DNA from: Hoylesella nanceiensis DSM 19126 = JCM 15639
GTDB lineage: Bacteria > Bacteroidota > Bacteroidia > Bacteroidales > Bacteroidaceae
DNA: 64,000 nucleotides
Assembly: GCF_000379965.1 (NCBI RefSeq)
Contig: NZ_KB904328.1
Coordinates: forward strand, 310,001 to 374,000
Direction: 5' to 3'
Of the stretch, positions 21,673 to 57,877 are shown piece after piece. The position numbers were made by a program, and so were the translations under genes. The notes below the pieces were generated by a model, which saw nothing but the letters and a program-made list of their open reading frames with translations, made no database searches and was not told the origin of the DNA. Every line of letters begins with the position of its first letter. Within the stretch, counting starts at the first letter, position 1.

Positions 21673-21753
21673 AAAAGCAATGCTTTTTAGTTGCAAAAGC
21701 AATGGAATTACACCCTAAAAGCAATGCTATTGCACTGAAAAAGCTATACTTTT
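21673..21753 (+). repeat. 22-bp array, family A, 4 units
   Basis: Units begin at 21673, 21695, 21717 and 21739, each exactly 22 bp apart, all starting AAAAGC. The third unit (AAAAGCAATGCT then ATTGCACTGA) is close to the family consensus. The array lies between the GH36 terminator and the acid phosphatase promoter and fills most of the spacer. The unit start is a near-palindrome (AAAAGCAATGCTTTT). Confidence 0.85.
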
Positions 21754-21890
21754 AAAATAAATAATTTTATACTTGAATTGCTCTAAAACGCCCTAAAAAT
21801 GGCTATTTATGGGCATTTTTTGCAAATAGTTGCAATTGAGAAAAATGGTAAAACAACAAATTACAACTATTTTATAAGATGATTTATATC

Positions 21891-21898
21891 TATATTTG
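21891..21898 (+). promoter_or_regulatory. Promoter -7 box of the acid phosphatase gene
   Basis: TATATTTG matches TAnnTTTG exactly, 45 bp before the start codon. No TTG -33 element is seen. Confidence 0.6.
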
Positions 21899-21942
21899 CG
21901 ACATAAATCAAATTTTAACATCACTAAATCAACTATTTCATT

Positions 21943-22725
21943 ATGAAAATCAAACACGCTTTACTTGCTGCTGCAGCGCTATTTGTTGCAACAAGCTCTT
22001 TTGGACAAGAAAAAATTAAAGATGTAAGAACTAAACCTGATTTGTATTTCCTACAAATTGGCGAAGTAGCTAACAGCTTAAAGCTTCTTCCTCCACCACC
22101 ACAACCAGGTTCAATTCTATGGTTAAACGACGTATCTCAATATCAATGGGGTAAGATGCAACGCAATACTGAGCGTGGAGATCAAGCAGTTGCAGACGCA
22201 AGAGTAAATGGTGATGGTGTGCCCAACGCCTTTTCTGATGCTTTCGGCATTCGTATTTCAAAAGAAACAACACCCGAAATATATAAATTAGTACTTAACA
22301 TGCGTGAAGACGCTGGTGACCTTGCTACACGTGCAGCTAAAGATCACTATATGAGAATTCGTCCTTTCGCATTCTTTAAAGAAGACACTTGTAACCCAGA
22401 ACAACAACAAGAACTTTCAACAAACGGTTCTTATCCATCAGGTCACACTGCAATTGGTTGGGCAACAGCTCTTGTTTTGGCAGAAATTAACGTAGATCGT
22501 CAAAACGAAATCTTACAACGTGGATTCGAAATGGGTCAAAGTCGTGTAATTTGTGGTTACCACTTCCAAAGCGATGTTGATGCAGCTCGTATCGTTGCAA
22601 GTGCTGTTGTGGCTCGTCTTCATGCTAACGACGCTTTCAACAAGCAATTAGAAAAGGCTAAGAAAGAATTTGCTGCACTTGTGAAAGCAGGTAAAGTGAA
22701 GAAAAGTACTTTCAAAGCAAACTAA
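21943..22725 (+). CDS. Class A non-specific acid phosphatase (PhoN-like, PAP2 superfamily)
   Basis: The 260-aa protein has a signal peptide ending SSFGQ and the three-part PAP2 phosphatase motif: KDHYMRIRP (about 137-145), NGSYPSGHT (about 161-169) and [14 protein letters not shown] (about 202-215), which include the catalytic histidines. It should release phosphate from organic esters in the periplasm. A porin-like gene and a histidine phosphatase gene follow on the same strand, suggesting a phosphorus-scavenging cluster. Confidence 0.92.
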
Positions 22726-22775
22726 GAAGAAACAAGAATATAGACAACATTTTTCATTCTCTCAACTCACATAAA

Positions 22776-24013
22776 ATGAAAAAATTAGTTGTAATGGGCA
22801 CGCTCCTTTTAAGCGGTTGGGGTGTGGCCCTTGCCCAAACAGACTCTACCGCAACTGAAAAAGGGGCTACTTTAGCAGCTACTCCTGTTGCAGTTAGCGC
22901 ACCTACAGAGACTGTTAGCAAGGTGAAAGAAGAACCAAAGTTGAGTGTTAAGCCAACAGGTAGGATTTTGTTCGATGCTGCTTTATTTGCACCAAAGAAT
23001 CAAAAAGATCTGTTTAACGACGGATTTGGTGTCCCAGACGCTCGTGTTGGTGTGGCAGCAAAATACGATAAGTGGTATGCTAAGGTGGATATCGGCTACG
23101 CATACGGCAAAGTTGGATTGAAAGACATTCTTCTTCAATATAGATTTAACGAACATCAGCTACTTAGAGGAGGTTACTTTGTGCATCAATTCGGTTTACA
23201 AAGTGCTACAAGTTCATCTTTCAAGATCTCTATGGAAGAGCCTATGAGCCAAGGAATATTCGGCGATCCTCGTCTATTGGGTTTGATGTATGTTCACAAC
23301 CTCGATAAGTTCTTCGGAACATTCAGTTTCTTCACAGAATCGAACTCAATGAAGATGCCTTCAGACCAGTTAGGAAATCAAGGCTTCGGAATGATGTCTC
23401 GCTTGCTATATAAGCCTTTCACAGAAGACGGAAATATTCTACATATCGGTATTTCAGGCGCATTCGAGACTCCACAATACGACAAAACAGCAGCACTTAA
23501 CCACAAAGTATATACTTTAGCATCACCTTTCCCAACCCGAGTAGCGAAAATCACGGCTATACAAGCAAGGGTAGAGAATGCTAAACGCTTGTTTAAAATA
23601 AGTCCAGAGATAACTGCTGCGAAGGGAAAATTGGGTATTGAGGCTCAATACTACTATTTAACTATCGCACTGACAATGGCTTTCAAAACTATAAAGCAAG
23701 TGGTGCATACTGCAGTTTGCGTGGCTTGATTAAAGGACCAGACTATAGTTACACTCATGCAGATGGCGGAATTGATACTCCAAAGCCTGGTTCTATGGAG
23801 CTTGTAGCCGCTTATAACTACACAGATCTATCTGATCACAAAGCAAATATATTGGGTGGACGAGCAAATGACTGGTCGTTAACCTACAATTACTACCTCA
23901 ATAAATACATGATTTGGCGTTTGCGTGCATCTTACACCAAAGTAACTGATCGTGCAGGATACGACAATAATCATGTGGGAATATTAGAAACCCGACTCCA
24001 AGTCAAGTTTTAA
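22776..24013 (+). pseudogene. Porin-like outer membrane protein, frameshifted
   Basis: The first frame (to 23729) has a signal peptide ending ALAQ and barrel-like sequence, then loses sense after GIEAQYYYL. From about 23658 another frame continues the barrel (NYRTDNGFQNYKASGAYC, SLRGLIKGPDYSYTHADGG) to a normal aromatic end LETRLQVKF at 24013. One missing base near 23651-23660, in a TATTTAAC context, explains both parts. The complete protein would be about 412 aa. Similarity to phosphate-selective porins is suggested by neighbours and barrel style only. The lesion could also be a sequencing error. Confidence 0.8.
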
Positions 24014-24035
24014 TTAACTTATCCTACCAAACATC

Positions 24036-25328
24036 ATGAAACGTAAGTACATCTTTCTATCATTATTACTGCTAAGTTTATGGCTCAACCCCATAACTTT
24101 AACAGCGCAAATCAAACGTAGCGATAGTTTCAAAGAAAAGTATTCGCTCAAAGAAGTCGTTGTTTTGAGTCGCCACAACATACGCTCTCCTCTATCAAAT
24201 GGAGGGAGTGTATTGGGCAAACTCACCCCACATCAGTGGACAGATTGGAGCTCTTCAGCGAGTGAATTAACCCTTCGAGGAGGTGCTTTAGAAACTATCA
24301 TGGGTCAATTTTTTAGAAAATGGCTCGTAAAAGAAGGATTATTTCAAGAAAATTATGTACCTTTGCACGATGACATATTGGTATATGCCAACAGTATGCA
24401 GCGCACAATAGCTACCGCACGCTATTTTTCTGCAGGATTTATGCCTATCGCAGACATCCAAGTTCACCATAGATTCTCGCCAAGTAAGATGGATCCTATC
24501 TTCTTTCCAAGGCTCACTAAGGTGTCAGAAGAATTCAAAAAGGAAGCTTTAAAGCAAATAGCTGCAATGGGAGGAAAACGTGGTATTGTTGGAATCAACG
24601 AAGAATTAAAAAGCAGTTATGATATCATTGAAAACACACTTGATTAAAAAAACTCTCCAGCTTGTAAGGAAGGCATCGCTTGTTCGTTTGATGATTACAA
24701 CACAAAGATACTCCTAGAGCTTGGAGAAGAGCCTCAAATGAAGGGTTCTTTGAAACTTGCAAACACTGCATCAGATGCTTTTATCTTGCAATACTACGAA
24801 GAGAGCGACGCAAAGAAGGCGGCTTTTGGCCACGATTTGACGCTATCGGATTGGGAAAAGATTGCAAAAGTGAAAGATGTATATGGAGATGTGCTCTTTG
24901 CAGCACCCATAGTGGCAGTGAATGTGGCTCATCCTTTGTTGGTTTATATCAACGATGAGCTGAATGCAGACAAGAGAAAGTTCACCTTTTTGTGTGGACA
25001 CGACTCTAATATCGCCAGTGTTGGCGCAGCATTGGGTATCGAACCCTATTCGCTTCCCAATACAATTGAAAAGAAAACGCCCATCGGATGCAAACTTGTT
25101 TTCGAGAAATGGGTAGATAAAAAAGGTGAGGTTTTCGTTGCATTGAATCTCGTTTATCAATCAACAGACCAGCTTCGAGGACTCAAACCGCTCGATCTTA
25201 AGACACCACCAATGGTGTTTGAGCTCAAACTTAAGGGATTAACGCCCAATAATGACGGTTTATATACGTTCAAAGACGTGAACAATCGATTTGTTGAGGC
25301 TATTCGTGCATATGAGAATATCAAATAA
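24036..25328 (+). pseudogene. Histidine-type acid phosphatase interrupted by an in-frame stop
   Basis: The frame from 24036 encodes a signal peptide and the histidine acid phosphatase motif SRHNIRSPLS (about 45-54), then meets TAA at 24645-24647. The same frame continues past the stop without a shift (KNSPACKEGIACSFDDYN) to 25328 and includes the second catalytic motif FLCGHDSN. Read through, the protein is about 430 aa, the family length. Function would be removal of phosphate from phytate-like or inositol phosphates outside the cytoplasm. Restart at ATG 24738 would lack the catalytic His, so the gene is probably inactive unless the stop is an error or is suppressed. Confidence 0.82.
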
Positions 25329-25358
25329 AATAAATCTGTTTTAATTATGTTACGTAAA

Positions 25359-25400
25359 GAATTCCGATGAGCTGTGAAGTTCGTTGGAATTCACTTTTTC
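25359..25400 (+). terminator. Terminator after the histidine phosphatase gene
   Basis: GAATTCC (25359-25365) pairs with GGAATTC (25386-25392), followed by ACTTTTTC. Confidence 0.7.
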
Positions 25401-25442
25401 ATTTTTCTTCTACTTAAAATGTGCTCCTATGGACACAAAATA

Positions 25443-25474
25443 AAGGGAAAGTGCTTGTGTAAGTACTTTCCCTT
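25443..25474 (-). terminator. Terminator of the tRNA-Arg transcript
   Basis: AAGGGAAAGTGCTT (25443-25456) and AAGTACTTTCCCTT (25461-25474) form a 14-bp stem with one G-U pair and a GTGT loop. On the minus strand it lies 61 nt beyond the tRNA and is followed by TATTTTG. Confidence 0.7.
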
Positions 25475-25535
25475 CTTCGTTATTTAGATAATCATCCTCG
25501 ATTACTTTTATTTCAAGTAGAATGCTTTTGCCTTG

Positions 25536-25607
25536 TACTCCCACCGAGAATCGAACTCGGATCAAAGGTTTAGGAAACCTTCGTTCTATCCATTTAACTA
25601 TGGGAGC
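25536..25607 (-). tRNA. tRNA-Arg (CCT anticodon)
   Basis: On the minus strand the acceptor GCTCCCA pairs with TGGGAGT, with A as discriminator. The anticodon arm AAGGT-TTCCTAA-ACCTT carries CCT (complement of 25572-25574), reading AGG codons. The T arm is CCGAG-TTCGATT-CTCGG. The CCA end is not encoded. Length 72 nt. Confidence 0.95.
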
Positions 25608-25911
25608 GAGGCTTTTCACCAAACGCAATGATGCTGTTTGTTGCTTCAATAATGGTGATTTGCACCTAAATATTAATGAAATGCTATTACAACTTAATCT
25701 TTTCGCTTAGTAAATTCAAAAAGATTCTCTTGAAATAATTGTTCAACTGCAAAGTTAAACATTAATTATGAAATCCCCAACCGCAAACGTTTTTTTTTGA
25801 TTGTCACACGTCATAGATCAGAATAAAAATGATGTTGCACTCTTTTTGAGGTGCTTTATAAAGGGAAATAGTCTTATTGAAAGCCGAAACCACCCTGAAA
25901 CCGCCCCACTA
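25608..25911 (-). promoter_or_regulatory. Promoter and long leader of tRNA-Arg
   Basis: On the minus strand TTG (25780-25778) and TAACTTTG (25757-25750) are separated by 20 bp, a good Bacteroidota promoter. Transcription would start about 137 nt upstream of the mature tRNA. The rest of the spacer up to the ABC gene shows no gene-like feature; a T7 run sits at about 25791-25798. Confidence 0.65.
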
Positions 25912-26649
25912 TTACAGGCTATATCCCAACTCAGCCACCTGCTTTTTCATCGCCTCATCATTGCATCTTCCCGTGATAAGTTGCCCTTCTGAAGACATAA
26001 ACCACAGCTCTGGGTCGGCTTTTAAGGCGATATCGAGATCGTGAGTGGATAGAATCACAATCTTATTGTATTCCTTTGCCAATCTATTGAGCTGTTGCAT
26101 CAGTTCCACTTTACTTGGATAATCCAAGAAAGCACTGGGCTCATCTAACAACATTAGCGGTGTTTCTTGCGCCATTGCCTTTGCTATAAACGCCTTTTGA
26201 CGCTCTCCATCGCTCAGCATCTGCACCTTTTTATGTTTCAAATGCTGAATATTCAAGAGCGAAATAGCCTGATTTACCATTTCGATGTCATGCTGATTCA
26301 ATCGCCCAAAGAAGCCAGTATGAGGCAATCTGCCCAACGAAACCAACTCAAAAACGCTCATTTCGCCCGTGTCTATCTTGTCGGTTAGCACCACACTCAC
26401 CAGCTTCGACAGCTCATTTGCAGTGTAGTTGCCCACCAATTGCCCGTTTATCAACACCTCTCCCGCCACAGGTGCAATGAAACCAGCCAGCGTTCGCAAC
26501 AGAGTTGTTTTGCCAACGCCGTTCTTTCCAATCAAACAAATCAGCTCATTGCGGGCTATCTCCACATCAAAGGCGCATTGGTTAATGGGCACCTGCTTTC
26601 CTTTTGAGGCATAACCCACCTGCAATTGGTTCAGTTTTAGTTCTATCAT
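25912..26649 (-). CDS. ABC transporter ATP-binding protein (siderophore/heme/B12 importer type)
   Basis: A single nucleotide-binding domain with Walker A GKNGVGKTTLL (about 40-50), signature LSDGERQ, Walker B MLLDEPSAFLD and switch His in LSTHDLD. The layout resembles FecE/FhuC/BtuD ATPases. No permease or binding protein is adjacent, so its partner must be encoded elsewhere. The start is ATG at 26649; GTG at 26652 is possible but lies only 2 nt from the -7 box. With ATG the box-to-start gap is 5 nt, implying a leaderless or nearly leaderless mRNA. Confidence 0.88.
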   Translation of the reverse strand: MIELKLNQLQVGYASKGKQVPINQCAFDVEIARNELICLIGKNGVGKTTLLRTLAGFIAPVAGEVLINGQLVGNYTANELSKLVSVVLTDKIDTGEMSVFELVSLGRLPHTGFFGRLNQHDIEMVNQAISLLNIQHLKHKKVQMLSDGERQKAFIAKAMAQETPLMLLDEPSAFLDYPSKVELMQQLNRLAKEYNKIVILSTHDLDIALKADPELWFMSSEGQLITGRCNDEAMKKQVAELGYSL

Positions 26650-26654
26650 CACTA

Positions 26655-26662
26655 CAAAGATA
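26655..26662 (-). promoter_or_regulatory. -7 box of the ABC ATPase gene (leaderless)
   Basis: CAAAGATA on the plus strand reads TATCTTTG on the minus strand. Only 5 nt separate it from the ATG at 26649. Confidence 0.65.
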
Positions 26663-26736
26663 CGTCTTTCGTTGTTTTAATGCACTGCTTCATTCAAAAA
26701 AGTAATGAAAATTAAATCGCCAATTACTTTTTTTCT

Positions 26737-26744
26737 TATCTTTG
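26737..26744 (+). promoter_or_regulatory. -7 box of the small gene at 26751 (leaderless)
   Basis: TATCTTTG is a consensus box placed 6 nt before the ATG at 26751, so transcription should begin at or next to the start codon. Confidence 0.7.
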
Positions 26745-26750
26745 TGCATC

Positions 26751-27137
26751 ATGATAAGACAAGATTATTTTATTCGATTAGTAAAAGAGTTTGCGGCTGC
26801 TTTGCAACGAGCAATGGCTAAAAAAGACTATGAAAAGCGCAGAGAAGCCATCAAAGACCTATACACTCAGTTCGTGGGAGACTATCAGTTCTACCACACA
26901 GCCACTATTGATGACGTGATGAAAGAGGCTGAAAGCTTTCCAGAAAACGAGCGTTTGGTGAAGTTAGAGATGCTTGCAGAGTTGTATTTTGCCGAAGCAG
27001 ACTACCTTTCTAACCCCTTTAAAGAAGTGATTTTGAATAAAGCTTACAGCTTATATCTATTTGTTGATAAATATAGTAACGACTACTCTATCGACAGAAA
27101 GCATAAGCTCGACACCTTAAAAGCACTACTTCCCTAA
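26751..27137 (+). CDS. Conserved hypothetical protein (DUF6483-like)
   Basis: A 128-aa soluble, largely helical protein with no signal peptide or TM segment. The start MIRQDYFIRLVKEFAAAL resembles the DUF6483 opening, a recognition I hold loosely. ATG at 26751 is chosen over the in-frame ATG at 26742, which lies inside the -7 box. The gene has its own leaderless promoter, divergent from the ABC ATPase. Its last 12 bp overlap the 3' end of convergent ribD. Function unknown. Confidence 0.7.
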   Translation: MIRQDYFIRLVKEFAAALQRAMAKKDYEKRREAIKDLYTQFVGDYQFYHTATIDDVMKEAESFPENERLVKLEMLAELYFAEADYLSNPFKEVILNKAYSLYLFVDKYSNDYSIDRKHKLDTLKALLP

Positions 27138-28124: not shown

Positions 28125-28132
28125 AATTTTAT

Positions 28133-28140
28133 TACTTTTG
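28133..28140 (+). promoter_or_regulatory. -7 box of prmC (leaderless)
   Basis: TACTTTTG matches TAnnTTTG and lies 4 nt before the prmC ATG at 28145, implying a leaderless transcript. Confidence 0.65.
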
Positions 28141-29489: not shown

Positions 29490-29577
29490 AAAAGCACCCC
29501 TATCACCTTTTAAAAGCGTTGTTATTACCTGCTAATAGCAATGCTTTTATTGTTCAATAGCTATGCTCTTGCTTGTC
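29490..29577 (+). repeat. 22-bp array, family A, 4 units
   Basis: Units start at 29490 (AAAAGC), 29512 (AAAAGC), 29534 (AATAGC) and 29556 (AATAGC), an exact 22-bp period. The third unit (AATAGCAATGCTTTT) is the best match to the consensus. It lies between convergent genes. Confidence 0.85.
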
Positions 29578-32519: not shown

Positions 32520-32986
32520 TAATCTATATAAAATAATGAAAGACTACTTTTACTTGTTGGCAGACCAGTTATCTGCAAAAAGTCTTTGTAAACCCTAAAA
32601 CGTCGAATGCGTTGTTGCCCTTGTTGGTCGGTAAGGGTCACCGTTCCTTGGGCAAAAACCTTATAAATACCTTGCAAACATCTAATGTTGAGCTGTGTAT
32701 TTTGTTGTTCGGTGGCATTCACAACCTCGTTAGTATTGAGGTTAGTGAGCGTTATTGCCACTTCCATTTTATTGACTTGAACCGAGTCGCCCGCATCAAT
32801 TGTGATCTCTGCAGTGGTAAAAAGCTCGTCTTGATCTTTGTGACACGATGTGAACAAGACGCCCGTTGCCACGCAAGTTGCGACCATCAAGAACAAAAAG
32901 GGGCGCAATTGACTTGCAAAAGCAGTGTTTTTGCACTGCAATAGCAATGCTTTTATGCTCGAAAAGATATGCTTTTGTTTCTTCAT
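32519..32986 (-). CDS. Small lipoprotein with a repeat-derived N-terminal extension
   Basis: The start is ATG at 32986, which overlaps the TonB receptor stop (TTATGA). The protein is 155 aa. A lipoprotein-like hydrophobic segment (PFLFLMVATCVATGVLFTSC) ends at Cys48, much later than usual, because residues about 3-23 are encoded by a 22-bp repeat array at 32918-32979. The mature part (about 50-155) is beta-rich with a DUF4876-style opening (AEITIDAGDSVQVNKMEVAI). Translation might instead begin at Met34. Function unknown; probably an accessory to the receptor. Confidence 0.7.
   Translation of the reverse strand: MKKQKHIFSSIKALLLQCKNTAFASQLRPFLFLMVATCVATGVLFTSCHKDQDELFTTAEITIDAGDSVQVNKMEVAITLTNLNTNEVVNATEQQNTQLNIRCLQGIYKVFAQGTVTLTDQQGQQRIRRFRVYKDFLQITGLPTSKSSLSLFYID
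32918..32979 (+). repeat. 22-bp array, family A, 3 units, inside a coding region
   Basis: Units start at 32918 (AAAAGCAGTG), 32940 (AATAGCAATGC) and 32962 (AAAAGATATGC), 22 bp apart. The array lies in the first 70 bp of a minus-strand gene. Because 22 is not a multiple of three, successive units are read in different frames. Confidence 0.85.
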
Positions 32987-37548: not shown

Positions 37549-37746
37549 AAAAGCAGTGTTATTGCTATTGAAAAGCATTGCTTTTGCACCTTAAAAACAT
37601 TGACATTAGCACCTAAAAAGATTGCTTTTGTTCAAGGCTTCTTTCGACTTTCGACAATACTTATTTTCTCTTTCCCTCGTACCTCTTTTAACCTTCTCCC
37701 CCACTTATTTCGCCTTTGCCCTACACCTCTTTTAACTTAGAGTCAT
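37549..37746 (+). repeat. Continuous 22-bp array: family A passing into family B, 9 units in phase
   Basis: Family A units start at 37549, 37571, 37593 and 37615. After one intermediate unit at 37637, pyrimidine-rich family B units start at 37659, 37681, 37703 and 37725. All starts fall on one 22-bp grid. ACCTCTTTTAAC is repeated 44 bp apart (37681 and 37725), and ACTTATTT likewise at 37659 and 37703, suggesting a two-unit higher-order repeat. Confidence 0.85.
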
Positions 37747-41197: not shown

Positions 41198-41520
41198 ATC
41201 CTGTTTTCGATTTATGAAGAGCCAATTCCGACTTACGAAGAATCTGTTTTCGATTTGAAGAGAGCCGTTTTTTGATTAAAAAAAATCGATTTTCGACCTG
41301 CAAACAAGCTCAAAAAGGCACTCGGGTCGTTCTCTTTTCATCTCGCACATCGCCCTCTCGTTGCACCAACTCACTCACCTCCATTATCACCCTCATAACG
41401 CTTTGAACAACAGCTCTTTGCAATCGTTCTAAAATCTCAATGTTTTTGGTATGCAATAAGCCTCATTTTGCACCTCAATAGCAACGCTTTTGCGCCCCAT
41501 TAGCGATGCTTTTGGCGAGC
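41198..41520 (+). repeat. Spacer of 22-bp units: families C, B-like and A in succession
   Basis: Family C units start at about 41198, 41220, 41242, 41263 and 41285, with CTGTTTTCGATTT repeated at 41201 and 41244. A pyrimidine-rich stretch (about 41320-41430, CTCTTTTCATCTC) resembles family B. Family A units follow at 41433, 41455, 41477 and 41499 (AATAGCAACGCTTTT, ATTAGCGATGCTTTT). The last three A units are exactly 22 bp each; one C unit is 21. Confidence 0.75.
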
Positions 41521-44670: not shown

Positions 44671-47058
44671 ATGAAAGTAGCATTACTAGCAGCATCTCTT
44701 GCAGCTTCGTTGTCATGCCACGGGCAAACAAGAAATGAGATTTTACTCAAGAAATGGGATTTTTCTCGTGACAAAGTAAATTGGAAACAAGTTACTGTAC
44801 CACACGACTGGGCTATTGATGGACCCTTTGATAAGAAGTGGGACATACAATATTTGGCAATTGTTCAAGACGGACAAGAGCGTCCTATCGAGCATACAGC
44901 TCGTTCAGGCGGTCTTCCTTGGATTGGAGAAGGCAACTATAAAACCACATTTAATATAAAGAAAGGTACCAAACACGCCCAACTATACTTCGATGGCGCA
45001 ATGAGTGAGCCAATAGTGAAGGTCAATGGCAAAGAAGTGGGACGTTGGATGTATGGCTATAACGCCTTCCGACTCAACATTACACCTTATATTAAAGACG
45101 GAGAAAACAGCGTTGAGGTACATCTTAACAACCTTGAAGAGAGCAGTAGATGGTATCCCGGAGCAGGATTGTATCGTCCTGTGAAGCTTATCACCACCAA
45201 TGAGAGCCGAATAGACGAATGGGAGACCTACTTTAAAACTGTTTCTGCCAACCACCAAAAGGCACTCTTAAAGGTAGACACACGCATAGAAGACGGCAAT
45301 GCACTTAAGAATTTAACCACAAAGGTTGAATTGTTAGATGCACAAGGCAAACAAGTGGCAACAGGTCAACAAAAGATCAACCAACAAGGAGCCGCAAGTT
45401 TCAACCTCGAAGTAACCAATCCACATCTTTGGGACATCGACACTCCTTATTTATATACCCTTAAAACAACTCTTTTAAAAGGCAAAAAAGCCATCGACCA
45501 AACCACAACTAAGGTCGGAATACGCACCATCGACGTGAGCAAAGAATATGGTTTCCGCCTCAACGGCAAGAGTTTGAAATTCAAAGGCGTTTGTCTTCAC
45601 CACGACTTAGGCGCATTAGGTGCAGCATTGAATAAGACTGCGGTGATACGTCAAATCGAAATGATGAAGAAGATGGGTGTTAATGCCATTCGAACATCGC
45701 ACAACATGCCTTCACAAATGCAGATGGACGTGTGCGACTCGTTAGGTATGATGGTGATGGCAGAGAGCTTCGACGCTTGGAAAGACCTTAAAGTGAAAAA
45801 CGGCTATGGCCGTATCTACGACGAATGGTGGCGCAAAGACCTCGAAAACCTCATCAAAGGACACCGCAATCACCCATCTATCGTGATGTGGAGTATCGGT
45901 AATGAGATTCCAGAACAAAGCAACAAAGCAGGTGCTGCACGTGCTAAAGCCATGACAGAATATTGTCATTCGCTCGATTCAACACGCACTGTAACTTGCG
46001 GAGTCGATGCTCCTCAACAAGCAGTAGACTGCGGTTTCTACGATGCAATAGACGTTCCAGGTTTCAACTACCGCATACAACTCTACGAAAAGCTCATTGG
46101 CAAGCTTCGTCAAGGATTCTTATTGGGATCTGAAACCACATCAGCAGTAAGTAGCCGTGGCGTTTATAAGTTCCCAGTGACCGTCGAAAAGATGAAAACT
46201 TACGACGATGGACAATGCAGTAGCTACGACACTGAATTCTGTGGATGGAGCAACTTGCCCGATGATGACTTCGCAAAGATGGACGATTTACCTTATGATA
46301 TAGGTATGTTTATATGGACTGGGCAGGATTATCTTGGCGAACCCACTCCTTATTACTCATATTGGCCATCAAGAAGTAGCTACTTTGGAGCCGTAGACCT
46401 TGCAGGATTGCCCAAAGACCGCTTCTATCTTTACAAGAGTGTGTGGAACAAAAAAGAGCCAACCCTTCACCTATTGCCTCACTGGAACTGGGAAGGTAGA
46501 GAAGGACAAACCACTCCTGTGTATTGTTATACAAGCTATCCATCTGCCGAGCTCTTTGTAAACGGCAAGAGCATGGGACGCATTCACAAGCAACCTAACA
46601 CTCAATTAGATCGTTATCGTTTGCGTTGGAACGACGTGAAGTATGCTCCAGGCGAAATTAAGGTAGTGGCTTACGACGAAAACGGAAAGCAAGTGGCTGA
46701 AAAGACCATTAGAACCGCAGGTCAACCAGCCGTTCTCGATATGAAAGAAGAACGTTCGGTTATTGCAAGCGATGGCGAAGACTTGGCATACATCACCCTT
46801 TCTATGCTCGACAAAGACGGCAACGAATGTCCAACAGCCAACCAATCTATCAGCTTCACCGTTGAAGGAGCAGGACAGTTTAAGGCTGCTTGCAATGGCG
46901 ATGCTACTTCGTTAGAACCTTTCACACAACCAAGAATGAAGTTGTTTAGCGGTAAGTTGGTGCTCATCGTACAAAGCAATGGCAAGAAAGGCGACATCAT
47001 TGTGAAGGCGAAGGCCGACAACGGAATCGAAAACAAATTGGTGCTTAAAGCTCAATAA
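44671..47058 (+). CDS. Secreted glycoside hydrolase family 2 (beta-galactosidase type)
   Basis: The ~795-aa protein has a signal peptide ending near SCHGQ, then the GH2 order: jelly-roll sugar-binding domain (VPHDWAIDGPFD), Ig-like domain, and a TIM barrel with the acid/base Glu412 in SIGNEIPEQ and a nucleophile Glu at about 487 in LLGSETTSA. C-terminal Ig-like domains resembling DUF4982 and an invasin-like repeat follow (about 590-795). Beta-galactosidase activity is the usual assignment for this architecture, but related enzymes have other specificities. GH20 and GH2 side by side suggest host glycan degradation. Confidence 0.87.
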   Translation: MKVALLAASLAASLSCHGQTRNEILLKKWDFSRDKVNWKQVTVPHDWAIDGPFDKKWDIQYLAIVQDGQERPIEHTARSGGLPWIGEGNYKTTFNIKKGTKHAQLYFDGAMSEPIVKVNGKEVGRWMYGYNAFRLNITPYIKDGENSVEVHLNNLEESSRWYPGAGLYRPVKLITTNESRIDEWETYFKTVSANHQKALLKVDTRIEDGNALKNLTTKVELLDAQGKQVATGQQKINQQGAASFNLEVTNPHLWDIDTPYLYTLKTTLLKGKKAIDQTTTKVGIRTIDVSKEYGFRLNGKSLKFKGVCLHHDLGALGAALNKTAVIRQIEMMKKMGVNAIRTSHNMPSQMQMDVCDSLGMMVMAESFDAWKDLKVKNGYGRIYDEWWRKDLENLIKGHRNHPSIVMWSIGNEIPEQSNKAGAARAKAMTEYCHSLDSTRTVTCGVDAPQQAVDCGFYDAIDVPGFNYRIQLYEKLIGKLRQGFLLGSETTSAVSSRGVYKFPVTVEKMKTYDDGQCSSYDTEFCGWSNLPDDDFAKMDDLPYDIGMFIWTGQDYLGEPTPYYSYWPSRSSYFGAVDLAGLPKDRFYLYKSVWNKKEPTLHLLPHWNWEGREGQTTPVYCYTSYPSAELFVNGKSMGRIHKQPNTQLDRYRLRWNDVKYAPGEIKVVAYDENGKQVAEKTIRTAGQPAVLDMKEERSVIASDGEDLAYITLSMLDKDGNECPTANQSISFTVEGAGQFKAACNGDATSLEPFTQPRMKLFSGKLVLIVQSNGKKGDIIVKAKADNGIENKLVLKAQ

Positions 47059-47160
47059 AAAACGCTTATAAAACAATAGGGGTGCTTTTGCATGGTAAAA
47101 GCAACGACATTGCCCCTTAATAACACAGCTTTTAAACCCTAAAAGCAATCCTTTTAAAGT
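47054..47160 (+). repeat. 22-bp array, family A, 4-5 units
   Basis: Units start at about 47054, then 47075, 47097, 47119 and 47141; the last four are exactly 22 bp apart. The third and fifth (AAAAGCAACGACATTGCC, AAAAGCAATCCTTTT) are closest to consensus. The first unit touches the stop codon of the GH2 gene and the last merges with the terminator stem. Confidence 0.8.
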
Positions 47161-47200
47161 ATCACTCGTGCGCAAAGGCTCGGGTGATACTTTCTTTTTC
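47156..47200 (+). terminator. Terminator after the GH2 gene
   Basis: AAAGTATCAC (47156-47165) pairs with GTGATACTTT (47184-47193), followed by CTTTTTC. Confidence 0.85.
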
Positions 47201-47209
47201 TACCCCACC

Positions 47210-47319
47210 CACTTCCTTTTCCCATCTTAGTTGCTCTCCTTTTCCGCCTCACTCACTCTTTTTTCTCACCCCACTCACGTTCTTCTCTCATCTTGCCCAC
47301 TCTCCTTTCCCACATCAAG
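47210..47319 (+). repeat. 22-bp array, family B, 5 units
   Basis: Pyrimidine-rich units start at 47210, 47232, 47254, 47276 and 47298, exactly 22 bp apart. Shared features are an initial CAC(T) and a central TCCTTTTCC or similar. The tract is almost purine-free on the plus strand. Confidence 0.75.
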
Positions 47320-49247: not shown

Positions 49248-49340
49248 AAAAGCAGTGCTTTTAGTTCTCAAAAGCAACGACATTAGCTCGCAATTACAGC
49301 TCTTTTTCACTCTCAAAGCATTGCTTTTGCAAGCACCCCA
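49248..49340 (+). repeat. 22-bp array, family A, 4 units
   Basis: Units start at 49248 (AAAAGCAGTGCTTTT), 49270 (AAAAGCAACGACATTAG), 49292 and 49315, with steps of 22, 22 and 23 bp. The rest of the spacer to 49484 is AT-rich with no other repeat seen. Confidence 0.8.
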
Positions 49341-52387: not shown

Positions 52388-52419
52388 GCAGTAGTTCATT
52401 CAACTCTCAAACATAATTT

Positions 52420-52467
52420 GTGGCAACTTAACCTCATTGCAAAGGTTGGGTTGCCACTTTTCTTTTG
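52420..52467 (+). terminator. Terminator after the M16 peptidase gene
   Basis: GTGGCAAC (52420-52427) pairs with GTTGCCAC (52450-52457), with AACCT/AGGTT extending inside, followed by TTTTCTTTT. Confidence 0.85.
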
Positions 52468-52553
52468 TCTGCGAACTATCTTGTTAGGAAGTTGATTGTT
52501 ACCATTTAATAGATAGTGTATAGGTAACAATTTAGAAATGAGCGAAGCTCTCT

Positions 52554-52679
52554 TCAATTCATTTCTACATCATTTTTTGGAGCGACACCAACTCCATTAC
52601 ATGCTTTCATCATCTCGCTTCCTATACATTGAAGGTCATTGGAAAGCAAAATTTCTTTGGGTGTCACATTTTCGTGCAT
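52554..52679 (-). CDS. Possible small or degraded gene downstream of the DNPH1-like gene
   Basis: The frame from ATG 52679 encodes 41 aa beginning MHENVTPKEILLSNDLQCIG. Protein-like sequence continues upstream in the same frame (SVNTIDKANCFIVLR) to a stop near 52733, without a start codon. A different frame there opens with ATG and MSIYVERK. Together they could be one small gene with a frameshift, or noise. I do not recognise a family. The remaining spacer (52468-52776) shows nothing else. Confidence 0.25.
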   Translation of the reverse strand: MHENVTPKEILLSNDLQCIGSEMMKACNGVGVAPKNDVEMN

Positions 52680-52776
52680 ACGAAGTACGATAAAACAATT
52701 CGCTTTATCAATCGTATTTACGCTCTACATAAATACTCATTTTTGTACTTCAGCTAAAACAAAGGAATTACAAACC

Positions 52777-53196
52777 TTATAAATTTCCCAATATAGAATC
52801 AATAGCAGAATATATTTCATCTTCCACTTCATAAGGAATAACGGTGAAATAAGAATTGCCATTCAACATAGCCGATATATTGGATTTCCCCTTATTATAA
52901 AAAATATAAACTGGAATATGATGTGCTTCTGCATAAGCTAATTCATAACCAACCCCCAAAGAGGAACAAGTACATTCGGCTATCAGCAAATCACACGACT
53001 TAAGCCATGCAGTATCACGCTCATAAATACGGGTATCAATTGCAAGAGTTTGTGCCTTCAAACTCATATTAGATTTACCAATATGTTCTGTAAGTACAAT
53101 ATCTGTCTTTTTAATATAGTCAATGATGCGCTTATACAAATCTGCATCGACCCTACCTCCACGAATGGAAGCGGCAAAATACACTTTATTATTCAT
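52777..53196 (-). CDS. 2'-deoxynucleoside 5'-phosphate N-hydrolase-like protein (DNPH1/Rcl)
   Basis: The 139-aa protein belongs to the nucleoside 2-deoxyribosyltransferase fold. It opens VYFAASIRGGRVD (substrate phosphate loop), followed by VLTEHIGKSN, then YERDTAWLKSCDLLIAECT and SLGVGYELAYAEA, where the Glu is the expected nucleophile. This pattern follows animal Rcl/DNPH1, which splits deoxynucleoside monophosphates into base and deoxyribose 5-phosphate. The gene has its own promoter and is AT-richer than its neighbours. Confidence 0.85.
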   Translation of the reverse strand: MNNKVYFAASIRGGRVDADLYKRIIDYIKKTDIVLTEHIGKSNMSLKAQTLAIDTRIYERDTAWLKSCDLLIAECTCSSLGVGYELAYAEAHHIPVYIFYNKGKSNISAMLNGNSYFTVIPYEVEDEIYSAIDSILGNL

Positions 53197-53252
53197 TTGT
53201 TATATATTTTCTTATCTGATTAATAGCTATATAGTCCTCTTCTACTTTTCTA

Positions 53253-53260
53253 CAAAGATA
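53253..53260 (-). promoter_or_regulatory. -7 box of the DNPH1-like gene
   Basis: CAAAGATA on the plus strand reads TATCTTTG on the minus strand, 56 nt before the start codon. Confidence 0.6.
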
Positions 53261-53299
53261 CAAAAAGCCCACGTCTTTTTAGGACATAAAGTTCTTTTT

Positions 53300-53527
53300 T
53301 TTGTCTGCTCCATCTATCTTTTTCACTTGTCCCATATCCCCCTTTCTCACTTACTCCACACCTCTTTCCTCCCCCTTTCCGTGTTCTTTCAATCCACTCG
53401 CACGCCCCTCACATACTTGCCCCACTTCAGTTGCGAAATAAAAGCAGCATTCTTAGTCTGCAATCACAATGCTATTGCCCTCTTATCTCACCCACTTTGC
53501 GCACCAATAGCAGCAACATTGCGCACT
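53300..53527 (+). repeat. Pyrimidine tract (family B-like) and 22-bp array of family A
   Basis: About 53300-53430 is a pyrimidine-rich plus-strand tract with repeated CAC and CTCTTTCC words and a loose period. Family A units follow at 53440 (AAAAGCAGCATTC), 53462 (AATCACAATGCTATTG), 53484 and 53506 (AATAGCAGCAACATTG), exactly 22 bp apart. Confidence 0.75.
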
Positions 53528-53575
53528 TCCTGTATACAAAGGGATTTTAAGAGGTTTTAGATTTGAAAAAGAAGG

Positions 53576-53664
53576 AGAAAACTGTTCGGTTAAAAAGAGA
53601 TGTTTTTAGGGTATAAAAAAGATGATTTTAGGGCATAAAAAGAGGTTATTTTAGAGCATAAAAA
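53576..53664 (+). repeat. 22-bp array, family C/D, 4 units
   Basis: Units start at about 53576, 53598, 53620 and 53642 (the last 23 bp). The second and third (AGATGTTTTTAGGGTAT, AGATGATTTTAGGGCAT, each then AAAAA) are nearly identical. The pattern AnnTGTTTTnnG resembles the family C units at 41198-41306. Confidence 0.75.
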
Positions 53665-53706
53665 AACCGCTTACACTTGCTACACAGCAAATATAAGCAG
53701 TTGGTT
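53660..53706 (-). terminator. Likely terminator of the DUF3127 gene
   Basis: On the minus strand AACC, GCTTA and TTGCT pair with AGCAA, TAAGC and GGTT as a stepped stem, followed by a run of seven T. It lies about 135 nt after the gene. Confidence 0.6.
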
Positions 53707-53839
53707 TATGTTTTTCTGTTGTCTGTTTCCGTGGCTATTTGGCTCAAAGAGGAACCATTGTGCGGTTAAGAAAGACTCTTATATCGCACCGCTTTGCCCC
53801 ATCTTACCCCTTAGCTGTTAACAACTCCAAGTCCTTTTC

Positions 53840-54250
53840 TTAGAAAGGAAGGTCGTCGCTACTTTCCTCTTGTGTTGCAGGTTGTGCTGGAGGGAATGGT
53901 GCAGCTGATGCTGTTGCTGCAGAAGCTGGTTGTGCTGGCGCTACATAAGGAGCACCTGCGCCCATCACTCCCACAGAGTTTGGATCGAGAACACGCACGT
54001 CAAAGGCTCTGATATTGTTGAACCAACGACCATTATATTCGTGTGCATCGATGTCGAAAGACACAGTAACTTCTTGTCCAACTTGTATATTAAAACGTTC
54101 TAAGCGGTCTGCACCAAACACACTAAACACCATTTTGCGTGGGTATTGGTCGTGAGTTTCTACCACAAAGTCTTGACTTTTCCACTCACCTCTTGCAGAA
54201 GTACCGCTTCTTGGTTCAAGAGCTGCAATAATCTTTCCTTGTAAATCCAT
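53840..54250 (-). CDS. DUF3127 OB-fold protein with SSB-like acidic tail
   Basis: The 136-aa protein has a compact N-terminal domain (about 1-88) of the DUF3127 family, with OB-fold-like strands (GKIIAALEPRSGT, VVETHDQYPRKMVFSVFG, VSFDIDAHEYNGRWFNNI). A low-complexity Ala/Pro/Gln linker follows, and it ends EESSDDLPF. Both the disordered linker and the acidic-Pro-Phe tip copy the C-terminal partner-binding tail of single-stranded DNA binding proteins. It may act with replication or repair proteins; dnaN lies divergently 180 bp away. Confidence 0.82.
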   Translation of the reverse strand: MDLQGKIIAALEPRSGTSARGEWKSQDFVVETHDQYPRKMVFSVFGADRLERFNIQVGQEVTVSFDIDAHEYNGRWFNNIRAFDVRVLDPNSVGVMGAGAPYVAPAQPASAATASAAPFPPAQPATQEESSDDLPF

Positions 54251-54355
54251 TTTATTTGTATTCTTTTTAAAATTTAATGCTTATTAATTTCAATAACTAT
54301 TGAATTGCGAAATTAAGAAAATAGTTTCAATATATAAAACTTTTCCTTCGTTTTT

Positions 54356-54385
54356 TTGATGTTCAAGATGTTTTTCGTATTTTTG
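54356..54385 (+). promoter_or_regulatory. Promoter of dnaN
   Basis: TTG (54356-54358) and TATTTTTG (54378-54385) are separated by 19 bp, a full consensus match, 46 nt before the start codon. Confidence 0.8.
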
Positions 54386-54430
54386 TAGAACATAGAAATT
54401 AAAGAAAACAACATATAAAAACATATCGCA

Positions 54431-55555
54431 ATGAAATTCAAATTATCGAGCACTTCCCTCAATAATAGCCTTCAAACTCTTGCAAAAGTTATTGCAAGTA
54501 AGAACACTTTGCCTATCCTCGAATCGTTTTTATTCGAAGTAGAAGGCAACGTTCTCACCATAACAGGTAGTGATAACGAAAACGTTATGCGCACCACTTT
54601 GCCATTGTTAGAAAGCGATGGAAACGGAGTGATTGCCATTCCAAGTCGCACAACCCTTGATGTTGTGAAAGAATTGCCTGAACAACCACTTGCGTTCGAT
54701 ATTGATACAAATACTTTCAACGTTGAGGTTACTTATCAAAATGGTAAGTATAACTTCACAGCTCAAGACGGAACAGCTTATCCAAAGCCTGAAGGTGTGA
54801 GCGAAGGAACAAGTGTTATCACCATTCCTGCAAACATATTGAATGCTAACATCACTCGTTCTATGTTCGCAATTGGTAGTGACGACATGCGTCCTGTGAT
54901 GAATGGACTCTACTTCGACCTACAAACTACAGGCTTATCTATCGTTGCAAGCGATGGACATAAATTGGTTCGCAACGTCATTAGCACCATAACAGGCGCA
55001 ACACCCGCTGCTTTCATTCTTCCAAAGAAGCCCGCAACACTTCTAAAGAACGTGCTTCCAAAAGACAACAGCGATGTGGTTATCAAGTTTGGAACCAACA
55101 GTGCAGAGATAATCTTTGCGGGTGGAACACTCACTTGTCGTCTTATCGAGGGTCGTTATCCCAACTATAGCTCTGTAATTCCAGAGAGCAACCCTAACCA
55201 ACTCACCATCGATCGTTTGTCATTGCTAGGTGCTTTGCGTCGTGTTTTGCCCTTTGCAAGCGAAAGCACACAGCTCATTCGTTTCAAATTAGAGGCAGGA
55301 AAGCTCGAAATATCATCAGAAGACATCGACTTTTCAACAAGTGCTAAGGAAGCAGTGAACTGCGATTACACAGGAAACAACATGAGCATTGGTTTCAAAG
55401 GTGGATCAATGACCGACATATTAAATAGTCTTGAGAGCGATGAAGTAACCATACAACTTGCCGATCCCAGTAGAGCTGGCTTGATTCTACCATCAGTTCA
55501 GCCCGAAAGTGCAGATGTATTGATGCTTCTAATGCCCATGCTATTAAACGATTAA
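54431..55555 (+). CDS. dnaN: DNA polymerase III sliding clamp (beta subunit)
   Basis: A 374-aa three-domain clamp that tethers the replicative polymerase. Recognisable features are MKFKLSSTSLNNSLQTLAKV at the start, SDDMRPVMNGLYFDL at the second domain, the IEGRYPNYSSVIPES motif and the C-terminal VLMLLMPMLL. It starts a conserved gene order with an exonuclease (2 bp downstream), coaBC, porD and recN. Confidence 0.97.
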   Translation: MKFKLSSTSLNNSLQTLAKVIASKNTLPILESFLFEVEGNVLTITGSDNENVMRTTLPLLESDGNGVIAIPSRTTLDVVKELPEQPLAFDIDTNTFNVEVTYQNGKYNFTAQDGTAYPKPEGVSEGTSVITIPANILNANITRSMFAIGSDDMRPVMNGLYFDLQTTGLSIVASDGHKLVRNVISTITGATPAAFILPKKPATLLKNVLPKDNSDVVIKFGTNSAEIIFAGGTLTCRLIEGRYPNYSSVIPESNPNQLTIDRLSLLGALRRVLPFASESTQLIRFKLEAGKLEISSEDIDFSTSAKEAVNCDYTGNNMSIGFKGGSMTDILNSLESDEVTIQLADPSRAGLILPSVQPESADVLMLLMPMLLND

Positions 55556-55557
55556 TT

Positions 55558-56415
55558 ATGAAATTAAACCTTCAGAGACCTCTCATCGTCTTCGATTTAG
55601 AAACCACTGGGCTCGATCTTGTTAACGATCGCATCATTCAAATATCGTATATCAAGGTGCATCCAGATGGAAAAGAAGAGCGAGAGAATCTCTTTATCAA
55701 CCCTCAAAAGCCCATTCCTCAAGAGGTAGAAGCACTTACTCACATCACAAACGATATGGTGAAAGATGCTCCAACCTTTGCAGAAATAGCCCAAAAGCTA
55801 TACGAAAAGTTCACAAATTGCGACTTTGCAGGCTTCAACTCGAACCATTTCGACATTCCAATGCTTGCCGAAGAGTTCTCAAGAGCAGGCCTTAGCTACG
55901 ATTTTAGTCGTTCAAAGCTCGTCGATGCACAAGTTATTTTCCACAAAATGGAACGCCGTAACCTTGCAGCAGCATACAAATTCTATTGCGGACGCAAGAT
56001 GGAAGACGACTTTAAAGCCCACCGTGCCGATGAAGATACAGAGGCAACCTATCGTGTTTTGATGGGACAAATAGAACGATATAGCGCAGAACAGCAACAA
56101 GAACCAGACAGAATTCTACCCAATGACATTGGTGCTTTGGCCGAATTCTCGAAGAATAACCGCAATGTTGACTTCGCTGGACGCATCGTTTGGAAAGAAG
56201 TTCTCGACAAAAACAATAAGCCTTTGCTCGATAAAAATGGCGAACCTGTTTTGCAAGAGACCTTCAATTTCGGCAAATACAAGGGACATAGCGTAACAGA
56301 AGTGCTCAACAGAGACCCTGGTTACTATAGTTGGATGCTCTCAAGCGACTTCACCAACAACACAAAAGAAGTGCTTACACGCATTCGTTTGAAAGAATTC
56401 AACAGCAAACAATAA
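55558..56415 (+). CDS. DEDDh 3'-5' exonuclease (DnaQ/PolC epsilon-like)
   Basis: The 285-aa protein has Exo I FDLETTGLD (about 12-20), Exo II FNSNHFDIPML (about 94-104) and Exo III HRADEDTEATY (about 152-162) of DEDDh exonucleases. A C-terminal extension (about 195-285) with a FNFGKYKGHSVTEV motif is common in Bacteroidota versions. It starts 2 bp after dnaN and probably proofreads or processes DNA 3' ends. Confidence 0.92.
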   Translation: MKLNLQRPLIVFDLETTGLDLVNDRIIQISYIKVHPDGKEERENLFINPQKPIPQEVEALTHITNDMVKDAPTFAEIAQKLYEKFTNCDFAGFNSNHFDIPMLAEEFSRAGLSYDFSRSKLVDAQVIFHKMERRNLAAAYKFYCGRKMEDDFKAHRADEDTEATYRVLMGQIERYSAEQQQEPDRILPNDIGALAEFSKNNRNVDFAGRIVWKEVLDKNNKPLLDKNGEPVLQETFNFGKYKGHSVTEVLNRDPGYYSWMLSSDFTNNTKEVLTRIRLKEFNSKQ

Positions 56416-56479
56416 ACATCATAGGGGGCGACAGACGTGCTTTTAAAGCCTTTGCAACGCCCCAATACAGAATAAGTGA

Positions 56480-56510
56480 CAAGAGATGAGCCCCTCATCT
56501 CTTGCTTCAT
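56480..56510 (+). terminator. Strong hairpin between the exonuclease and coaBC genes
   Basis: CAAGAGATGAG (56480-56490) and CTCATCTCTTG (56494-56504) pair perfectly with a CCC loop. The following CTTCATTAAAT lacks a T-run, so it may attenuate or stabilise rather than terminate. Confidence 0.5.
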
Positions 56511-56564
56511 TAAATAGAGATAAAAAGCAATCGCATTTCTAATAACCATTATTTGCAAAACAAA

Positions 56565-57788
56565 ATGCTAAAAGGAAAGAAGATAGTATTAGGCATAACG
56601 GGCAGTATTGCTGCCTACAAGGCTTGCCTCATCATACGAACACTCATCAAAAAAGGCGCAGAAGTGCAAGTGGTGATCACCCCTTCGGGCAAAGAATTCA
56701 TCACCCCTGTAACCCTTTCGGCACTCACTCAAAAGCCCGTTGTTAGCGAATTCTTTTCTCAAAAAGATGGTTCTTGGCACTCACATGTCGACCTTGGCCT
56801 GTGGGCAGACGCTATGTTGATTGCTCCTTGCACCGCCTCTACACTCGGAAAGATGGCCAACGGCATTGCAGACAACATGCTCATCACCACTTATCTCTCG
56901 ATGAAAGCACCCGTTTTTGTGGCTCCTGCAATGGATCTCGACATGTATCAGCACCCCACAACCGCTGCTAATATCCAAAAAATAGAAAGCTTTGGCAACA
57001 TCATTATCGAGCCAGGAAGCGGCTTTTTGGCGAGCGGTTTAGAGGGAAAAGGACGCATGGAAGAGCCTGAAGCGATTGTAGGAGTCCTCGAAAACTATTT
57101 CATCACCCACCCCACTAACAGCGAAACCACTTCGAATCTCTTTGGAAAAGAGGTGTTGATCACCGCTGGTCCTACCTTCGAAAAGATCGATCCCGTGCGC
57201 TTTATCGGCAATTATTCGAGCGGAAAGATGGGCTTTGCCCTCGCAGAAGAATGTGCCAAACGAGGCGCAAAGGTCACTCTTGTAGCTGGTCCTGTGGCTC
57301 TTTCGGCCTCAAAACGCATCGAACGCATCGACGTTGAGAGCGGAGAAGAGATGTACCATGCCGCTAACAAGGCGTTTAAAACGGCTGATGTGGCTATTCT
57401 TTGCGCTGCCGTTGCCGACTACAAGCCCCTAAACGAGGCGAAGGAGAAGATAAAACACAGCGAAGGCACCATGCAGTTGGAATTAATTTCGACTCGAGAC
57501 ATCGCAGCAGAGTTGGGCAAACAAAAGACCAACCAACAGCTTTTGGTGGGCTTTGCGCTCGAAACTCACAACGAAGAGTTCCACGCTAAGGAGAAATTGA
57601 AGAAGAAAAATCTTGACTTTATCGTCCTCAACAGTATGCGAAACGAGGGCACTACCTTTCAAACAGACGACAACCAAATTAACATTATCAGTGCCACTGA
57701 GAACAAAGCATTTGAAAAGAAGCCTAAAACGCTCGTGGCAAAAGACATCATCGACGAGGTAGAAGCACAGCTACAACGCAAGAAGTAG
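56565..57788 (+). CDS. coaBC: Bifunctional phosphopantothenoylcysteine decarboxylase/phosphopantothenate-cysteine ligase
   Basis: Two coenzyme A biosynthesis enzymes in one chain. The CoaC part (about 1-185) has GITGSIAAYKA, the active-site His in HSHVDLGLWADAM and PAMDLDMY. The CoaB part (about 192-407) begins LITAGPTFEKIDPVRFI and has NYSSGKMG. Where E. coli has catalytic Cys158 (ACGD), this protein reads LASGLEGKGRMEEP with Ser. ATG 56565 is chosen; a TTG at 56553 sits in a poor promoter-like context. Confidence 0.94.
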   Translation: MLKGKKIVLGITGSIAAYKACLIIRTLIKKGAEVQVVITPSGKEFITPVTLSALTQKPVVSEFFSQKDGSWHSHVDLGLWADAMLIAPCTASTLGKMANGIADNMLITTYLSMKAPVFVAPAMDLDMYQHPTTAANIQKIESFGNIIIEPGSGFLASGLEGKGRMEEPEAIVGVLENYFITHPTNSETTSNLFGKEVLITAGPTFEKIDPVRFIGNYSSGKMGFALAEECAKRGAKVTLVAGPVALSASKRIERIDVESGEEMYHAANKAFKTADVAILCAAVADYKPLNEAKEKIKHSEGTMQLELISTRDIAAELGKQKTNQQLLVGFALETHNEEFHAKEKLKKKNLDFIVLNSMRNEGTTFQTDDNQINIISATENKAFEKKPKTLVAKDIIDEVEAQLQRKK

Positions 57789-57815
57789 ACTTGCAAACCT
57801 TTCTCATCGATCAGT

Positions 57816-57877
57816 AACTCGTGCGCTTTTAGCTCACAACAGCAGTGCTATTGCACCCTAAAAGAATTGCTTTAGAC
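57816..57877 (+). repeat. 22-bp array, family A, 3 units
   Basis: Units start at 57816, 57838 (AACAGCAGTGCTATTGCA) and 57860 (AAAAGAATTGCTTT), 22 bp apart. The array separates coaBC from porD within an otherwise same-strand gene string. Confidence 0.8.

Follow-up and report, generated by a model that had tools for sequence, protein, structure and literature searches.

Dispersed Intergenic Arrays of a Dyad-Symmetric Unit with a 22-bp Period in Hoylesella nanceiensis and Related Genomes

Introduction

The Noc sites of Bacillus subtilis (about 70) and the SlmA sites of Escherichia coli (24–52) are short palindromes scattered over the chromosome, which are bound by a protein and serve as spatial landmarks for cell division (PMC4331003, PMC4726725). 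The REP and BIME families are extragenic palindromes of 20–40 bp in high copy, the families differing from bacterium to bacterium and many being tied to RAYT transposases; gyrase targets the REPs that lie at gene 3' ends in E. coli (PMC3733652). In this work, tandem arrays of a dyad-symmetric unit, repeated with a 22-bp period, are described in the window, that is, the whole analysed stretch of 64,000 nucleotides corresponding to positions 310001–374000 of contig C2 (NZ_KB904328.1) in the 2.65 Mb genome of Hoylesella nanceiensis DSM 19126 (coded G000). To our knowledge, little is known in the Bacteroidota about how the chromosome is organised, about nucleoid occlusion or about landmarks for segregation.

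Results

The arrays were surveyed over 454 kb, the window plus 390 kb more of the same contig, with a trained unit model that chains units about 22 bp apart, the reversed sequence serving as control and genes being predicted with a simple codon model. At the main score cut-off (≥22) 73 arrays were found against one in the control, and at the strict cut-off (≥30) 68 against none; the arrays are real. Four units were present in 51 of the 73 arrays and five in 14, and 238 of 244 unit steps were exactly 22 bp. Most of the arrays are intergenic: at a score of ≥20, the cut-off used for coding overlap, 72 of 76 were mostly non-coding, one partly so and three coding. An assumption-free comparison over the same 454 kb gave 60 non-coding segments in which at least 36/60 positions were identical at lag 22, whereas every other lag from 15 to 30 gave one at most. 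When the whole G000 genome was scanned with the single-unit pattern, 218 matches were obtained (control 3), 60 of them in the 454 kb, from which about 265 arrays per genome are estimated by unit matches and about 426 by length; with the four-unit model, at least 161 matches over both strands were counted genome-wide.

The unit reads (C/T)AA-W-NN-CA-N-TG-NN-W-TT(A/G), a 15-bp dyad with a 7-bp spacer. It reads much alike on either strand and gives the array no clear intrinsic direction; when 49 arrays were fitted for orientation, the answer changed with the starting point. AA and TT were weakly phased one unit beyond the four. A preliminary description of the window had placed all arrays on one strand and linked this polarity to replication, and neither claim is supported. 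The unit is dyad-symmetric, many array matches among those listed occur on both strands, and unit matches in the whole genome were 114 forward and 104 reverse, with orientations alternating along the contigs among the matches listed (about 100 of the 218). The one-strand impression arose because spacers such as GCACCCT had been used and because the window genes are mostly on the plus strand. Gene strand does leave a trace, as the orientation check proposed in that description revealed. On the plus strand the spacers contained more C than G in 42 of 68 arrays of the 454 kb, and they were C-rich in 15 of 17 arrays lying between two plus-strand genes versus 9 of 22 between two minus-strand genes (p = 0.003), with no correlation between spacer skew and local intergenic skew (rho 0.18, p = 0.15). 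Spacer C-richness thus tracks gene direction, and a link to replication is therefore unsupported.

Units were about as similar inside arrays (57.3% identity) as between arrays (56.2%). The arrays consequently do not stem from recent duplication, as had been stated earlier for slippage. The absence of CRISPR-type unique spacers was likewise noted correctly; a CRISPR array, with near-identical repeats and unique spacers of similar size, was rejected on repeat structure, the repeats here being degenerate and the spacers 7 bp long. Over 230 adjacent unit pairs of G000 no excess of complementary bases was found inside the dyad or across the spacer, and three across-spacer pairs were less complementary than expected (z −2.1 to −2.9).

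Selection was examined in alignments, obtainable for 36 of the 68 arrays, with G399, a relative with 91% identity to G000 across aligned blocks. The AA/TT ends had 0.039 substitutions per site, the positions next to them 0.13, the inner dyad 0.11, the dyad centre 0.19, mid-spacer 0.25 and flanking intergenic DNA 0.186, so that the AA/TT ends change about five times less than the flanks. Insertions and deletions were about three times rarer in arrays (13 events in 3289 positions) than in flanks (65 in 5341). Position is firmly kept between the two genomes: G399 retains 39 of 41 arrays with syntenic flanks, two look decayed, and 27 of the 68 were not scorable. Taken together, the independence of units, the absent covariation and the conserved arrays and AA/TT ends are the signature of protein binding sites.

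A junction of G000/G399 synteny was observed inside arrays, where one G399 array (L068) aligns with two G000 arrays (L009–L010) about 9 kb apart; the overlap of 76 bp suggests recombination between arrays. Several other synteny breaks between these genomes also sit at arrays, which might thus be taken for rearrangement hot spots but are themselves mostly intergenic.

Nine sites of 3–5 units had been listed for the window, and the 22-bp period was borne out at all of them, four being the typical number of units. Eight score at least 30, whereas the ninth (53440..53520) reaches only 21.4 and falls below the main cut-off. Seven of the starts hold, including the weak 53440; the array listed at 32918 begins one unit earlier, at 32896, and that listed at 47054 was out of phase and starts at 47075. 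As a shuffle check, a 12-mer with up to two mismatches had 45 matches in the window versus 15.3 (standard deviation 4.25) in shuffles.

Each of the nine arrays has four units, and no strand is assigned to any array. The array at 21673..21753 (score 72.1) lies 3' of an alpha-galactosidase (GH36) gene, that at 29490..29570 (61.9) in a convergent spacer directly past a recX-like gene, and that at 32896..32976 (63.3) at the 3' end of a TonB-dependent receptor-like gene. These are followed by arrays at 37549..37629 (68.8), at 41433..41513 (45.8) in a convergent spacer, at 47075..47155 (59.8) directly past a GH2 gene, and at 49248..49328 (58.6) with a GH20 gene on one side and an M16 peptidase gene on the other. 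The spacer 3' of the DUF3127 gene holds the weak array at 53440 and a second weak one without equal steps (53593..53674; score 23.8; steps 22, 23 and 22), and the array at 57816..57896 (36.5) has coaBC on one side and a DUF4835 gene on the other. By eye, a hairpin and then T-rich DNA adjoin the end of the 47075 array. Pyrimidine-rich DNA with T-tracts in a 22- or 44-bp rhythm, also seen by eye, adjoins two arrays at 37637–37746 and 47186–47273; it differs in sequence from the arrays and looks like a second phased array after the first. At gathering scores, Rfam models matched the window once, at a tRNA gene (25536–25607, minus strand).

Among the spacers of at least 300 bp, 54 of 95 hold an array; the share is 15/17 for convergent, 29/61 for tandem and 10/17 for divergent spacers, and divergent orientation had no effect on array presence beyond that of length (z = 0.1). 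Eighteen of the 73 arrays lie between convergent genes, and several arrays begin less than 30 bp from a stop codon. Just one spacer of ≥150 bp held two or more arrays above the cut-off, and gaps of less than 2 kb between arrays numbered 4 versus 11.6 expected at one array per region (p = 0.0025). Both sampled contigs of G399 carry arrays along their length. On its contig C1, the seven 20-kb pieces sampled at 0.42–1.02 Mb (L259–L265) held 8 arrays, against about 3 per piece at 1.11–1.51 Mb; the thin-array stretch, which was spotted post hoc, spans a GC-skew switch near 0.8 Mb and is a possible terminus effect.

The 80 best relatives of the window coaBC protein (66–73% identity) all belong by record title to the Prevotella group or the Bacteroidales, the renamed genera among them being presumably members of that group. 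The scan of related genomes proposed in the preliminary description recovered the 22-bp layout, but not the letters of the unit. The G000 unit pattern was near noise in 150 other genomes of the family (at most 13 matches versus 218), while in G399, which is outside the 150, a near-identical pattern gave 140 matches with none in the control. The four-unit sequence model, for which about the best 15 candidates were scored per genome, matched 144 of the 299 same-genus genomes including G000, and across the 20 such loci examined, G000 among them, the inner letters drift (AAAAGCATAGCTTTT, AAAAGGGCTGCTTTT, AAAACCGGCGCTTTT). In a scan of the phylum, 8 of 197 other genomes had matches, all of them weak.

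Palindromes at the loci of relatives were judged by eye and then counted in genomes. The palindrome AAAAGGTNACCTTTT of P. bivia had 318 site matches in that genome, both strands counted (control 33), with several runs of four among the matches listed. For AAGAGGGCGTTTCTT there were 349 matches in P. veroralis (control 11) and 196 in P. vespertina (control 12), and for AAACGCACTGCGTTT 1037 in P. conceptionensis (control 9) and 152 in H. shahii (control 7). Steps of 22 bp between own palindromes were seen in the sequences of P. bivia, P. veroralis and P. conceptionensis, the results for P. vespertina and H. shahii being site counts alone. Most other genomes were near control for all three palindromes. 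The exceptions were P. conceptionensis, which has a similar family of its own, for AAAAGGTNACCTTTT (35, control 12); G000 (21, control 5) and P. jejuni (22, control 13) for AAGAGGGCGTTTCTT; and G000 (38, control 3), G136 (31, control 10) and G399 (27, control 1) for AAACGCACTGCGTTT. A palindrome is thus common to the pair P. veroralis/P. vespertina or P. conceptionensis/H. shahii and not to others; we take these pairs to be close kin, the kinship of G000 and G399 being a measured one.

Each of the five single-contig genomes of the same genus that were sampled (40–80 kb) carries its own 22-bp palindrome arrays, and two carry several families; in G266 (L247–L248) and G271 (L253–L254) several unrelated families were observed in one genome. 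Of five genomes sampled from other genera of the family, one (G032) has arrays, three (G149, G009 and G082) were without any lag-22 segment, and G135 gave one, AT-rich, with no palindrome array accepted. No palindromic 22-bp array was found in six genomes of other families (40 kb each), in which the near-signals were one G-rich lag-22 segment in G461 and AT-rich ones just below the cut-off in G487 and G515.

At 80 named loci, lag 22 gave 32 segments, some of them non-palindromic, and lags 44, 21, 14 and 24 gave 22, 17, 14 and 12; many of those at lags 21, 14 and 24 are simple repeats of 7 or 8 bp. With a simplified general model, no more than 7 arrays were detected in these loci versus 2 in the control. 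In P. conceptionensis signals of 8-bp repeats occur at lags 16, 24 and 32 (34, 22 and 23 segments) versus 17 segments at lag 22. Strong intergenic 8-bp tandem repeats were observed in L096 and L129 (AACTCATA-like) and, with lags 16, 24 and 32, in L205–L210 of P. conceptionensis (G448). Palindrome arrays with steps of 21 bp (L077 at 476, L114 at 3017) or 23 bp (L138 at 7108, P. vespertina) were seen alongside the 22-bp ones.

Between species with different palindromes, array position seems to be kept only suggestively. In P. bivia an array of its own palindrome lies directly after coaBC, as in the window at 57816; the next gene differs, being recN-like, and no DUF4835 match was found in that coaBC locus. 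At the 60 loci where coaBC and DUF4835 follow in order, the spacer is shorter than 100 bp in 58. The spacer 3' of the DUF3127 gene could be scored in 28 relatives, with lag 22 best in 8 of them and any other lag in at most 3; by eye about six of these eight are distinct palindromes, L117 being weak and L134 an 11-bp repeat.

Discussion

In our judgement it is on balance probable that the arrays are compound operators of a dimeric DNA-binding protein, whose cooperative assemblies would act as chromosome landmarks. A sequence-specific dimer would recognise the 15-bp dyad, and typically four dimers would bind adjacently and cooperatively on one face of the DNA, one per two helical turns (22 bp). 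Such a protein on about four sites fits the strict two-turn spacing, the dyad symmetry, the selection, the independence of units and the genome-wide palindrome; the earlier suggestion of a protein on one DNA face is the best reading of the symmetry, the strict period and the purifying selection on dyad and spacing. Several hundred complexes would form per genome, with hardly any intergenic region holding more than one and few lying less than 2 kb apart, as landmarks for nucleoid organisation, or for the timing of division or segregation. We infer such an architectural role, rather than promoter control, from the arrays in 54 of 95 longer spacers, convergent and divergent ones included, and from their minimum spacing. 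Between species, protein and site may have changed together into "dialects" with the geometry kept.

Several results weigh against this reading. Convergent orientation favours arrays beyond the effect of length (z = 3.2), and in tandem spacers 26 of 40 arrays are closer to the upstream stop (p = 0.006), both of which also fit a role at transcription ends. The landmark function is drawn from distribution only. The several palindrome families of G266, G271 and P. conceptionensis fit several regulators equally well, and dyad pair 2/12 in G000 is complementary less often than expected (z = −3.9). The two longer coaBC–DUF4835 spacers (≥100 bp; H. shahii and P. conceptionensis) have no 22-bp array, and the case for positions being kept between distant species is so far a weak one. 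The candidates tested, Lrp/AsnC and HU-HIG, yielded no reader protein.

Lrp/AsnC octamers consist of four dimers, and their operators are 15-bp palindromes in helical phase, much as the arrays offer four phased 15-bp sites. In one Lrp clade, however, the recognition helix NVSGAAIHQRIQKL is unchanged in G000, P. bivia, P. veroralis, P. vespertina and G453, and this reader is disfavoured because these five genomes have four different palindromes; the comparison covered 30 of 36 matches, G399 and one H. shahii copy having given no sequence, and specificity beyond the helix is possible. The copy number of HU-HIG does not track the arrays (4 in G000, 30 in P. vespertina and 20 in G135, where no palindrome array was accepted in 40 kb), and the HU-HIG model also matches ordinary HU, as an E. 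coli control suggests.

The convergent excess and the closeness to upstream stops would be expected if a bound array halted RNA polymerase at the ends of transcription units, as a protein-based terminator. Terminator-like hairpins are somewhat fewer at convergent 3' ends with an array (13/34) than at those without (8/16), in line with such a road-block; in tandem spacers, however, the relation is reversed (10/37 with an array versus 6/74 without, by a crude hairpin rule), and arrays also occur in 10/17 of the divergent spacers of ≥300 bp, where no called gene ends, so that we regard the road-block as unlikely. Tandem dyad sites are typical operators, and control of nearby promoters by an ordinary transcription factor, or by several paralogues, would account for this layout and for the several families of some genomes. 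It seems a poor candidate given the several hundred arrays per genome reached by extrapolation, the 18 of 73 that lie between convergent genes, and the position of tandem-spacer arrays closer to the upstream stop than to the downstream start. A- and T-tracts every 11 bp could bend DNA without a specific protein, and ends of AAAA/TTTT recur every 11 bp in G000, P. bivia and G005. Phased A-tract DNA was nevertheless rejected, as the tracts are absent by eye from palindromes that keep the 22-bp period, namely TTCYAG-N3-CTRGAA in G266, TATATG-GGG-CATATA in L079 and TACAAG-N3-CTTGTA in H. shahii and P. conceptionensis; intrinsic curvature is accordingly very unlikely.

A stem of 6 bp with a loop of 3 nt can also be drawn for each site, and arrays within 30 bp of a stop codon could represent four small hairpins in a row in 3' untranslated RNA. 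To such RNA elements we give hardly any weight: the 230 adjacent unit pairs of the one genome show no compensatory covariation, the most conserved positions keep AA and TT, divergent spacers carry arrays too, and the arrays match no Rfam family. Equally little can be said for mobile or once-mobile REP/MITE-like repeats spread by copying. Their dispersal in intergenic DNA in several hundred copies, the one G399 synteny junction inside arrays, and Y1 transposases in 4 of the 12 array-bearing genomes searched (P. bivia, G166, G266 and G271) would agree with this origin. Against it stand the equal unit identity within and between arrays, the sharing of nearly all scorable arrays with G399, with no clean empty site, and the absence of a Y1 transposase (PF01797) match in the other 8 genomes, including G000 and G399.

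A broader proposal, which is doubtful at present, extends the reading as operators of a dimeric protein to a "chromatin code" of the Prevotella group: several hundred fixed assemblies, each of typically four dimers of a single DNA-binding protein (4 × 22 bp), whose recognition sequence would be swapped wholesale between species while the geometry and at least some positions are kept. PRDM9 sites and centromere repeats are fast-evolving landmark systems, and such a code, if true, would be their bacterial counterpart. The turnover of hundreds of sites with the 22-bp layout kept raises the question of how recognition protein and sites change together, and the arrays, as conserved compound sites that number several hundred per genome and whose motif can be read species by species, are a direct bait for the protein.

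No description of such arrays was found in the open-licence literature, searches for possible readers or parallels included, which leaves subscription journals mostly outside; the main text of PMC5771137, in the portion available, does not contain "22-bp" and states that short repeats were not annotated. The proposed binding mechanism is of a familiar sort. The array class is rated as new, since none of the known families tested combines species-specific letters with a fixed layout of typically four sites at 22 bp.

Plasmid iterons are direct, non-palindromic repeats of about 22 bp confined to a replication origin; the arrays share with them tandem sites at one per two helical turns, but are palindromic and dispersed. 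DNA uptake sequences of Neisseria and the Pasteurellaceae likewise combine a genome-wide short motif, species dialects and frequency at gene ends; they are single motifs of 9–12 bp, also found inside genes and without 22-bp arrays. Like REP and BIME elements, the arrays are extragenic, palindromic, of high copy and different among bacteria. Their units are degenerate (56–57% identity) and held in a fixed 22-bp register, they have not been seen to move, and no PF01797 match was found in G000 or G399, although 4 of 12 array-bearing genomes have one; REP-type mobility was rejected, 39 of 41 scorable arrays being shared. With Noc and SlmA sites the arrays have in common that they are palindromes dispersed over the chromosome, the binding by a protein being predicted here, and they differ in numbering several hundred, in grouping typically four sites at a fixed 22 bp, and in letters that are species-specific within a genus. 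Scarcity near the replication terminus, a trait of that class, is at most hinted at by the thin-array stretch of G399. REPs may be regarded as nearest in appearance, and the Noc and SlmA sites as probably the nearest functional parallel.

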